Shown here piece by piece: positions 1,506 to 37,732 of a stretch of 64,000 bases of DNA. Source of the DNA: Buttiauxella noackiae ATCC 51607 (GTDB lineage: Bacteria; Pseudomonadota; Gammaproteobacteria; Enterobacterales; Enterobacteriaceae); the NCBI RefSeq assembly GCF_001654865.1, contig NZ_LXEO01000008.1, positions 62,001-126,000 on the forward strand, written 5' to 3'. Under the pieces are notes generated by a model that saw only the letters and a list, made by a program, of their open reading frames with translations, searched no databases and had not been told where the DNA came from. Made by a program: the position numbers and the translations under genes. Numbering within the stretch: the first letter of the stretch is position 1; each line of letters begins with the position of its first letter.

Positions 1506-2261
1506 TTATGCGCGTTCGGTCGACTGCCCGTTGCTCATCAGTGGGAAAATTTGCAGTCCTGCACAGCGCCAAAGCTCCAGTTGGTCGAGCTGATGGGTGG
1601 TCGGTGTATCGCCACACCACACCAGCAATGTCTGATGAGCAAAAAGCTCAGGTCGCAGTTGATGGAGCGGATGGGCCAGAACATCAATACGCCAACCTTG
1701 CTGGATTGCCATCCATGCAGCCATCCACAAGCGCGTGGTATCCGGCGTGTCCCAACCCACCAATAACGCATCTTTTCCGCTGCGTTTACGCGCCGACGCG
1801 AGGCATAGCGCAATGTAGTTGATCAGTGCGCCGTCCAGTAGGCTAAGCAGGGTGTTCAATGTGACTTGATGGCATTGCAGGCGGCGGCGAAGGGGAGTGT
1901 AAAGCTGGTGAACGAGGGTTTCTGCGGGATAATCACGGCCAATGTCAGCCATCCAGGTACGTAATCGGTTCGGGCTGCCGCTTTGCAAATGGTGGAGCAG
2001 CAGTTCCTGGCGCTCACGCCAGCCGCTTTCCAGATCCTGAAGCTCGCAGCCCAATAAGGCTTTCACCTTGCCGACCTGAACGCCGTTTTCAATCCAGCGT
2101 TTGATTTCACGGATACGTTCGATGTCGTCATCGTCAAACAAGCGATGCCCGCCATCCGTGCGCTGAGGTTTTAATAACCCATAACGTCGTTGCCAGGCAC
2201 GCAACGTCACGGGGTTAATATCGCAAAGCACAGCCACTTCACCGATGGTATAAAGCGCCAT
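1506..2261 (-). CDS. mlrA: MerR-family transcriptional regulator MlrA
   Basis: DNA-binding activator of 251 residues. The N-terminal winged helix-turn-helix of the MerR family spans residues 1-70 (start MALYTIGEVAVLCDINPVTL, then RRYGLLKPQRTDGGHR). The C-terminal half resembles the B12-binding-like domain typical of MlrA. In E. coli, MlrA activates csgD and so curli and biofilm formation, and is itself under RpoS control. It is convergent with yehXW and yohO, as in E. coli. The ERIC array begins about 70 bp upstream of its start codon, so its promoter region is short or lies partly within repeats. Confidence 0.92.
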   Translation of the reverse strand: MALYTIGEVAVLCDINPVTLRAWQRRYGLLKPQRTDGGHRLFDDDDIERIREIKRWIENGVQVGKVKALLGCELQDLESGWRERQELLLHHLQSGSPNRLRTWMADIGRDYPAETLVHQLYTPLRRRLQCHQVTLNTLLSLLDGALINYIALCLASARKRSGKDALLVGWDTPDTTRLWMAAWMAIQQGWRIDVLAHPLHQLRPELFAHQTLLVWCGDTPTTHQLDQLELWRCAGLQIFPLMSNGQSTERA

Positions 2262-2332
2262 GTTATCCCCACAATCTGCTCGGGAAGCCCCCGTATAAAT
2301 GTAGTCAGTGGCGATAATTTTGGTGAACTATT

Positions 2333-2834
2333 TATACCCTTCATACTTCAAGACGCATCTTTGCTGACTGCGTTCACTCGCCCGAATCACTTACTGATGT
2401 AAGCTCATCGGGACTCGTTTTCTTGCCGCCGCGATGCAACTCGAATTATTTTGGGTATATACCCTTCATACTTCAAGACGCATCTTTGTTGGCTGCGTTC
2501 ACTCGCCCGAATCACTTACTGATGTAAGCTCATCGGGACTCGTTTTCTTGCCGCCGCGATGCAACTCGAATTGTTTTGGGTATATACCCTTCATACTTCA
2601 AACCGCATCTTTGCTGACAGCGTTCACTCGCCCGAATCACTTACTGATGTAAGTTCATCGGGACTCGTTTTCTTGCCGCCGCGATGCAACTCGAATTATT
2701 TTGGGCATATACCCTTCATACTTCAAGCCGCATCTTTGCTAACTGCGTTCACTCGCCCGAATCACTTACTGATGTAAGCTCATCGGGACTCACTATCTTA
2801 CTGCCTTGATTCAACTCGAATTATCTAAGGTATA
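2333..2834. repeat. Tandem array of four ERIC (IRU) elements, 125-bp period
   Basis: Four consecutive copies begin TATACCC at 2333, 2458, 2583 and 2708, an exact 125-bp period. Adjacent copies share the TATA at their junctions. Each copy has the ERIC end CATACTTCAA, the central palindrome ATCACTTACTGATGTAAG flanked by CCCGA and TCGGG arms, and the other end CAACTCGAATTATTTTGGG. The first three are nearly identical. The fourth differs more at its roxA-proximal end (CACTATCTTACTGCC). ERIC elements are imperfect palindromes of about 127 bp found between enterobacterial genes and not known to encode protein. The array fills almost the whole gap between mlrA and roxA. Confidence 0.93.
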
Positions 2835-2862
2835 GATCTGTCGTTAAGTCATTGGATCAGAT

Positions 2863-3984
2863 TTAGTCGTCGAAATACCAGTAGCCCTGATTAACCAGCT
2901 CAGTCAGTACGTTAACAAATTCCGGATTCTCTAACGCGTCGCCGAGTTCTGTTTGACCAAGGGTGGTGTAACGGCACAATGCATCCGCTGCTGCCGGGAC
3001 AGGCGCTTCCATTGCTTCGCTATTGACGAAGAACTCACCGTCAACATTCAGCACGCGTAAACCGCTCAGACGTGTCAGGTTTTCGCCACCCATTAACGCA
3101 TCAAGGATTTCATCTTGCTGATATGGCGGCTCTGCGGGGGCAACATCCAGTTCGTGGCGCGGTGTGGTAACAAAGCGGCCGAACCACTGCTTGAAATCTT
3201 CCGGCTGGCTGATGACTTCCATCATCATGTCACGCAGGCGATTAAGTTCGTAGCCTTCAACTTTGCCAGGATGTTCGCGAACGGTTAAGTCAGGATCGCT
3301 GTAGTGCTCACCACCCAGATCGTTTTCCAACGCGTAATCAGCAAAACTACTGATCAAATCACGGCCATTTGGCCCACGGAAACCGACGGAATAGTTGAGT
3401 GCAGTTTCGTGAGTGAAACCATCATGTGGGAAGCCCGGTGGAATATACAGAATATCGCCACGTTCCAGGTCTTGATCAATGATTGGCTCGAACGGATCAA
3501 CATGCAACAACGCAGGATGTGGGCAGAACTGGCGCATTGGCAGTTTGTCACCCACGCGCCAGCGACGGCTACCCATTCCCTGAATAATAAACACATCGTA
3601 TTGATCGATATGGGGTCCAACACCGCCGCCAGGTACGGAGAAAGAGATCATCAGATCGTCTAAACGCCAGTCTGGCAATACGCGGAACGGGCGCACCAGT
3701 TCAGCAGATGGTGCATGCCAGTGGTTAACGGCTTGCGCCAGCAATGACCAACCAGTATCACCGAGGTTGTCAAAATGCTCGAAAGGACCGTTGGCGGCCT
3801 GCCATTGACCATTAGTATGGCTGACCAGTCGGCTATCCACCTCTGCTTCCATGGCAAGACCGGCTAATTCATCCGGAGTAATCGGATCGACAAAATCAGG
3901 AAACGCATTTTTTAAGATGACCGGCTTTTTTTGCCAGTATTTTTCTAAGAATTCAGGCCAGTCTAAATTAAGTTGATAATCCAT
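2863..3984 (-). CDS. roxA: Ribosomal protein uL16 arginine 3-hydroxylase RoxA (YcfD)
   Basis: JmjC-type Fe(II)/2-oxoglutarate oxygenase that hydroxylates an arginine of ribosomal protein L16 (uL16). It is 373 residues, the E. coli length. The iron triad is visible: H125 and D127 in GPHIDQYDVF and H187 in PPGFPHDG. These match the positions known for YcfD. The C-terminal third holds the dimerisation and winged-helix regions. In E. coli the gene sits near phoPQ. Here it lies between the ERIC array and dinG, so it has moved. It is divergent from dinG. Confidence 0.96.
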   Translation of the reverse strand: MDYQLNLDWPEFLEKYWQKKPVILKNAFPDFVDPITPDELAGLAMEAEVDSRLVSHTNGQWQAANGPFEHFDNLGDTGWSLLAQAVNHWHAPSAELVRPFRVLPDWRLDDLMISFSVPGGGVGPHIDQYDVFIIQGMGSRRWRVGDKLPMRQFCPHPALLHVDPFEPIIDQDLERGDILYIPPGFPHDGFTHETALNYSVGFRGPNGRDLISSFADYALENDLGGEHYSDPDLTVREHPGKVEGYELNRLRDMMMEVISQPEDFKQWFGRFVTTPRHELDVAPAEPPYQQDEILDALMGGENLTRLSGLRVLNVDGEFFVNSEAMEAPVPAAADALCRYTTLGQTELGDALENPEFVNVLTELVNQGYWYFDD

Positions 3985-28418: not shown

Positions 28419-28554
28419 TGGGTATTCCTCTTCACCAAACCGCACTACTCAAAATTATGGACGATGTACAGATATTGGTTCAGGTGATGGCGTGTTGGTT
28501 TTAGGAGGGGTATTTAACTTTCTGATTTAACAGAGAACTCAAATTTCAGGCAAT

Positions 28555-28633
28555 AAAAAACCCATCAACCTTGAACCAAAGAGGCGGGGTTGATGGGCTC
28601 CACAAATTGGGGACATCAAAGAAAAGCAGTGGC
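28555..28633 (-). ncRNA. rybB: RybB, sigma-E-dependent small RNA
   Basis: A 79-nt RNA on the minus strand, the same length as E. coli RybB. The 5' seed GCCACTGCTTTTCTTTGATG is conserved. The 3' part is a terminator with stem CCCATCAACC and GGTTGATGGG followed by six U. The loop differs from E. coli, with a CTCTTT block. RybB works with Hfq and represses many outer-membrane protein mRNAs during envelope stress. It lies between ybjK and ybjL, as in E. coli. Confidence 0.96.
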
Positions 28634-37607: not shown

Positions 37608-37732
37608 AATTCTTCATACTTCGAGCCGCAAGGGTGTTGACTGCACTCACAAACCCCAGTCACTTACTCAAGTAAGCTCCTGGGGATTTGCTCCCTTGTC
37701 GCCTGGCCGCAACTCGAATTATTTTGGATATA
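37608..37732. repeat. ERIC element upstream of potF
   Basis: A 125-bp single ERIC with ends TTCATACTTCGAG and CAACTCGAATTATTTTGG and centre CCCCAGTCACTTACTCAAGT, then AAGCTCCTGGGG. This is the canonical ERIC type and differs in its core from the four tandem copies near 2.5 kb. It sits about 170 bp before the potF ATG. Confidence 0.93.

Follow-up and report, generated by a model that had tools for sequence, protein, structure and literature searches.

The closest described system is the ERIC element, also called IRU or RU-1 (MITEEc1). The repeats analyzed here share with it a 127-bp unit, TATACCC...GGGTATA ends, a central CACTTACT-GTAAG palindrome, TA at the edges and an intergenic position. 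They differ from the usual ERIC in that four units are fused instead of one standing alone, with one TA for each adjacent pair. In Yersinia, ERICs are reported to have orientation-dependent RNase E effects (PMC2229807, PMC10969869). The mechanism by which ERIC-type elements move is described as not worked out in the available part of PMC2759123. MITEPlu5 of Photorhabdus luminescens is described as a relative of ERIC that uses a TA target and whose ends resemble those of CCC-type IS630 elements. It resembles the present unit in its typical length of 123 bp, its TA target, its CCC near the terminus and its strong predicted fold (PMC6267812). It differs in that 552 complete copies were reported there, with 47 elements corresponding to indels between two genomes, and the accessible portion of that source does not mention tandem MITEPlu5. 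The REP/BIME and REPIN clusters are likewise made of small palindromic repeats. In BIMEs, however, the REPs alternate in orientation (PMC2817692, as far as available), whereas the present array is head-to-tail and made of ERIC sequence. In Porphyromonas gingivalis, the MITE BrickBuilt also combines a miniature element with a tandem repeat; its minisatellite lies inside one element (PMC4596501, excerpted text), whereas the repeat unit of the present array is an entire element. A description of a tandem ERIC array was not found in the part of the open-access literature covered, and papers outside it may hold one.

The window is the whole stretch of DNA that was analyzed, 64,000 nucleotides from Buttiauxella noackiae ATCC 51607. 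The first-pass annotation had proposed four complete head-to-tail ERIC copies with an exact 125-bp period at positions 2333-2834, and the unit coordinates and Tandem Repeats Finder both bear this out. As read directly from the sequence, four complete ERIC elements stand head-to-tail with a period of exactly 125 bp and no indels between units. The units start at 2333, 2458, 2583 and 2708, and the array ends at 2834, giving 502 bp (4 x 125 + 2). At the default score, Tandem Repeats Finder reported it as the sole array of the 64-kb window (period 125, 3.9 copies, 93% matches, 0% indels). The units are as follows.

2333..2459, plus strand: ERIC unit 1, 127 bp when the TA at each end is counted, one TA also belonging to unit 2.
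2458..2584, plus strand: ERIC unit 2, with 3 differences from unit 1 and the genome-typical T32 and G35.
2583..2709, plus strand: ERIC unit 3, with 5 differences from unit 1 and its GGGTA end now GGGCA.
2708..2834, plus strand: ERIC unit 4, with 2 differences from unit 1 in the first 84 bp and 11 in the diverged last 41 bp.

Compared with the 127-nt E. coli RU-1/ERIC sequence given in PMC2759123, units 1-4 were identical at 103, 104, 100 and 101 of 127 positions, respectively (79-82%). The TATACCC...GGGTATA termini are exact in units 1 and 2, while unit 3 ends in GGGCATA and unit 4 in AGGTATA. The ERIC core pattern, with up to 3 mismatches allowed, matched five times in the window, four of them inside the array, against a mean of 0 over 100 shuffles. 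The sole match outside the array is a lone, separate ERIC at 37612-37732. Rfam at the gathering threshold gave no match at the array. Elsewhere in the window, the RybB small RNA (Rfam RF00110, 103 bits) was located at 28552-28630 on the minus strand. The array is confirmed as a real four-unit array of a known miniature element, with ordinary parts in an unusual arrangement.

Junctions 1 and 2 read GGGTATATACCC, and junction 3 reads GGGCATATACCC. Because an ERIC starts with TATACCC and ends with GGGTATA, neighboring 127-bp elements overlap by TA alone, and the period becomes 127 - 2 = 125. The earlier statement that the junctions share TATA is therefore corrected, since sharing TATA would mean a 123-bp period. 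The TA-type target duplication proposed with it fits the period of 125 and the available parts of the literature (PMC2759123, PMC2229807), but not with TATA as the shared bases.

A further ERIC-like trait is that the sequence recurs at many places in its own genome. At least 43 ERIC matches, four of them the array units, were found there, with the best 40 of 130 candidates scored. Among the own-genome matches listed, the best near-full-length ones to unit 1 outside the array were 87% (query 1-128) and 89% (query 6-119) identical, and a partial match covered 75 bp at 91%. From the 39 listed matches outside the array, 26 other own-genome ERICs were taken as the comparison set. Units 1-3 are 93.5-97.6% identical to one another, whereas the 325 pairs among the 26 ERICs average 70.6% with a maximum of 88.6%. 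This directly observed similarity places units 1-3 nearer one another than to any of the 26. In a tree with the same 26 ERICs, the four array units form one clade with a local support of 0.95. ERICs of other species in the genus reach 92-93% identity to unit 2, above any near-full-length own-genome match listed. Given these matches, a donor ERIC that has since been lost from the own genome is possible.

Other collections were also compared. Megablast of window 2000-3300 against E. coli complete genomes gave no match. In the plasmid collection, 252 records matched, and 7 of these fell in the 80-90% identity band. The 20 rows listed were at 76-79%, each about one ERIC length and reached by all four query copies. 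The DDE_3 family (PF13358, IS630-type), the sole transposase family searched, gave no match in the 104-contig draft of the own genome, and the controls were positive in 3 of 14. An IS630-type transposase of the PF13358 family that could move the element was thus not found in this draft.

The array lies between two genes, both on the minus strand, and therefore sits in the roxA-to-mlrA intergenic region.

1506..2261, minus strand: mlrA, MerR-family regulator, the downstream neighbor (NCBIfam NF011617 at 405.3 bits, slightly short of its curated cut-off, 417).
2262..2332, no strand assigned: mlrA-side flank; congeners share roughly the 50 bp adjoining mlrA, and the remainder is variable.
2835..2862, no strand assigned: 28-bp stretch from the array to the roxA stop codon, without a counterpart in the congeners' intergenic sequences by eye.
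2863..3984, minus strand: roxA, JmjC oxygenase with a ROXA-like winged helix, the upstream neighbor (PF08007, PF20514); no NCBIfam match at 1e-5.

The locus was compared across related genomes, a check that the first-pass annotation had proposed. The array was present in 1 of 12 genus genomes (one per species). All 11 congeneric genomes contain both halves of the mlrA-roxA interval, and inspection of the sequences between the halves by eye revealed no ERIC. The array leaves the conserved 50 bp or so next to mlrA undisturbed, and the flank 2262-2332 probably carries the mlrA 5' region. ERIC-free congener sites read GGTGAATTATTTAGTCG in G011 and GGTGAACTATATTAGTCG in G006, and the window reads GGTGAACTATTTA to the left and CAGATTTAGTCG to the right of the array. 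TA is found at both array edges, and ERIC-free congener sites such as AATTATTTAGTCG can be set beside it; the right edge is blurred by the 28 extra bp on the roxA side. An exact pattern for 2835-2862 matched 14 of 172 loci, every one from the window's own site. This stretch has imperfect inverted ends, AGATCTG/CAGATTT.

Since the best near-full-length own-genome ERICs listed are only 87-89% identical to unit 1 and the site is ERIC-free in all 11 congeners, the array most likely grew locally. Together with the identities among units 1-3 given above, this supports tandem duplication, as had been suggested, as the most likely origin, rather than four separate insertions.

The alignment of the four units was also carried out as proposed earlier. 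Differences per 125 positions were 3 for units 1-2, 5 for units 1-3, 8 for units 2-3, 13 for units 1-4, and 16 for both units 2-4 and units 3-4. Units 1 and 2 are the most alike, the near identity noted for the first three units holds, and unit 4 is the most distant. The differences of unit 4 from the others lie mostly at positions 85-121. Against unit 1, 2 of 84 positions differ in the first part and 11 of 41 in the last (Fisher p = 7.6e-5). By direct observation, unit 4 is a mosaic, with divergence confined largely to its final 40 bp or so. The own-genome ERIC closest to this 3' part is at C38, with 80.5% identity over the aligned 41 bp and 89% over about 55 bp by BLAST. The 3' part carries bases rare or absent elsewhere, such as A121 in 0 of the 26 other ERICs, and therefore looks like an older, decayed ERIC end.

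Derived bases were then compared among the units. A21, absent from the 26 other own-genome ERICs, is common to units 1 and 2. C32 and A35, each present in 1 of the 26, are both common to units 1, 3 and 4. T88, again in 0 of the 26, is common to units 1, 2 and 3. The groupings given by A21, by C32/A35 and by T88 disagree, and exchange of sequence among units is expected to give such conflict. The conflicting bases are therefore best described as pointing to exchange among the array units, although the conflict at sites 21, 32 and 35 could instead reflect recurrent mutation or conversion by an ERIC elsewhere.

We consider it probable that an ERIC inserted into the roxA-mlrA interval and that homology-driven events at the site subsequently multiplied it to four head-to-tail copies, the array most likely being a by-product. 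The arriving element would be an ERIC specific to the lineage, of the non-autonomous miniature type that duplicates a TA target. The first dimer, with a junction of the form TA-element-TA-element-TA, may have arisen by a second insertion at the flanking TA or by slippage. If slippage took place between terminal TATA copies, with their 4 bp of homology, a 123-bp period would be favored; for this first dimer, a TA-flanked insertion accounts for the period of 125 no less well. Amplification to four copies may then have proceeded by replication slippage, unequal crossing-over and conversion between the 125-bp repeats. Unit 4 would retain the diverged 3' end of the older ERIC at the site, and units 1-3 with the 5' part of unit 4 would derive from younger, repeatedly copied sequence. 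We infer both this order of events and the recombination mechanism.

A second array was found in G005, a congener, at another locus and independent of the first.

L054 1505-1920 (G005:C2, from about 3062603): ERIC array with three full units plus a short piece, about 39 bp long.

Its spacings are 125, 125 and 125, and the full units differ from one another by 2, 10 and 10 per 123. For the short piece, 42 bp were compared, the last three lying outside it. The piece runs straight into other repeat-like sequence, GTAGGTCGGTTAAGCGCAGCGCC, and sequence similar to GTAGGTCGGTTAAGCGCAGCGCC is also present in the mlrA-roxA interval of G005 itself. This second array bears on whether the window array is an assembly artefact, that is, a repeat wrongly expanded in a draft assembly. 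The own genome is in 104 contigs, and 125-bp repeats are difficult for short reads. However, units 2, 3 and 4 carry distinguishing substitutions that artificial expansion does not create, and the like array of G005 stands in an assembly of 2 contigs. An artefact is therefore regarded as hardly credible.

Abutting ERIC pairs were searched in 392 sampled family genomes, the own genome included and many of them small symbiont genomes, with exact head-to-tail junction patterns of 0-6 spacer bases. Head-to-tail pairs were found in 12 of the 392, with 20 junctions whose spacers were 0 bp (6), 2 bp (13) and 4 bp (1). These counts are minimum values, since patterns with exact ends overlook even the array of G005. 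The matches with 1-2 mismatches that were inspected were the window's own and those of G005. In named genomes, 15 stretches were found, including Pluralibacter, Klebsiella sp. BIGb0407, Intestinirhabdus, Cedecea, Serratia, Sodalis, Kosakonia and Buttiauxella; the set is not an independent sample, because in 14 of the 15 a 100-bp segment is identical to one in the loci of the 392-genome sample. Two candidates were rejected: the pair of Buttiauxella sp. A111 (L119), in which the right element is reduced to about 20 bp, and G011:C88:5808, an exact pattern match consisting of one ERIC after a GGG with no ERIC end preceding. The notion that ERICs normally occur singly thus stands in part. A row of four is unusual, but tandem ERICs recur, as in the G005 array and these abutting pairs.

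After the window's own two junctions were removed, 18 remained. Near-identical pairs (at least 94%) make up 7 of them, three having just a 35-55-bp piece of the right element. The other 11 are at 90% identity or less, two of them (L092 and L109) with a short right element. In L090, L095, L106 and L054 the right element is cut after 35-55 bp and is identical or nearly identical to the left one. Such short right elements suggest partial duplications ending inside the element. Longer ERIC variants of about 130-270 bp, with apparent internal inserts, form abutting pairs in other genera (L097, L094, L104, L103 and L101).

The diverged pairs give some ground to serial separate insertions at the window site, by which successive ERICs from near-identical donors would each have entered the TA bordering the one before, all in one orientation. 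In G290 the neighbor is 85% identical to the queried unit, and 35 other copies score higher. In G204 the neighbor is absent among the 45 places listed (best 40 of 61 candidates scored), and nine near-full-length places are at 92-97%. From these sequences, some diverged abutting pairs (these two were checked) look like separate insertions. The period of 125, as a 123-bp core plus TA, the TA at the edges, and the ERICs of genus relatives at 92-93% identity to unit 2 are also consistent with serial insertion. Against it, the best near-full-length own-genome matches listed for unit 1 reach just 87-89%, derived bases are common to several units, and unit 4 is a mosaic. Serial insertion is accordingly judged improbable for the window array, and in-place amplification is preferred.

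All 20 junctions are head-to-tail. With the same kind of patterns in the same 392 genomes, abutting head-to-head pairs numbered 0 and tail-to-tail pairs 0. Because p5 squared + p3 squared is at least 2 p5 p3, random orientation should give inverted pairs at least as often as head-to-tail ones, regardless of what share of the elements has exact ends. For 11 diverged head-to-tail junctions against 0 inverted, the chance is about 0.0005 if all 11 are independent insertions. For the 9 diverged junctions with long right elements it is 0.002, independence having been checked in two pairs only. If ERICs abut solely head-to-tail even when diverged and seemingly inserted separately, the ERIC end may be an oriented landing site, or movement may involve intermediates in the form of head-to-tail dimers or circles. 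On this view, a directional process followed by homogenization would have produced the four-unit array as an extreme case. We hold this proposal to be doubtful. Arm complementarity after inversion would be 0.74-0.85 instead of 0.63-0.67 for the diverged pairs L096, L099, L107 and L108, and 0.98 for the near-identical pairs (the window's own, L098 and L100). Loss of long palindromes could explain the orientation bias and is a simpler cause than directional insertion, and assembler breaks at palindromes may add to the lack of inverted pairs. The bias is a lead and not a result about mechanism.

RNA folding was predicted for the intergenic region. Each unit of the minus-strand RNA folds at -38.7 to -50 kcal/mol (z -4.2 to -6.1), so that the long hairpin fold of an ERIC is predicted in all four units. 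The strands were compared for units 1 and 4. Unit 1 gives -47.5 kcal/mol on the minus strand and -35 on the plus strand (plus-strand z -3.7), and unit 4 gives -38.7 and -22.6 (plus-strand z -2.1). For the whole intergenic RNA, z is -7.85 from 20 shuffles, and the predicted minimum pairs unit 2 with unit 4 around unit 3. The row of hairpins expected by the first-pass annotation upon transcription is therefore upheld as to strong predicted folding, but separate hairpins are just one among several structures. If the roxA-mlrA intergenic region is transcribed, the array would add strong RNA hairpins to it. Promoter-like sites in the region are weak, with 1 found against 1.1 expected. Terminator-like sites are weak as well, with 3 on the plus strand against 0.5 expected; each falls within an ERIC unit core and is oriented against roxA and mlrA.

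These predictions bear on whether the array could be a selected regulatory device, in which the hairpins would shield mlrA from transcription coming from roxA or control the decay of the mRNA. The strand running from roxA to mlrA is the one predicted to fold more strongly in units 1 and 4. G-U pairing in an imperfect palindrome can by itself make one strand fold more strongly. ERICs in Yersinia mRNAs expose an orientation-dependent RNase E site, according to the available parts of PMC2229807 and PMC10969869, which is in favor of a device. However, the array occurs in just 1 of 12 genus genomes, with one genome per species, and a selected role is therefore not supported. We regard a regulatory device as very improbable and a function of the array as unlikely. 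Local DNA copying probably produced the row of units as a side effect and not as a device.

The window array alone has little weight beyond that of a potential variable-number typing locus for the species. Taken together, the arrays and the abutting pairs record ERIC duplication and side-by-side insertion. If the absence of inverted abutting pairs in the 392 sampled genomes is robust to controls for palindrome loss, it would set limits on how transposition can work.
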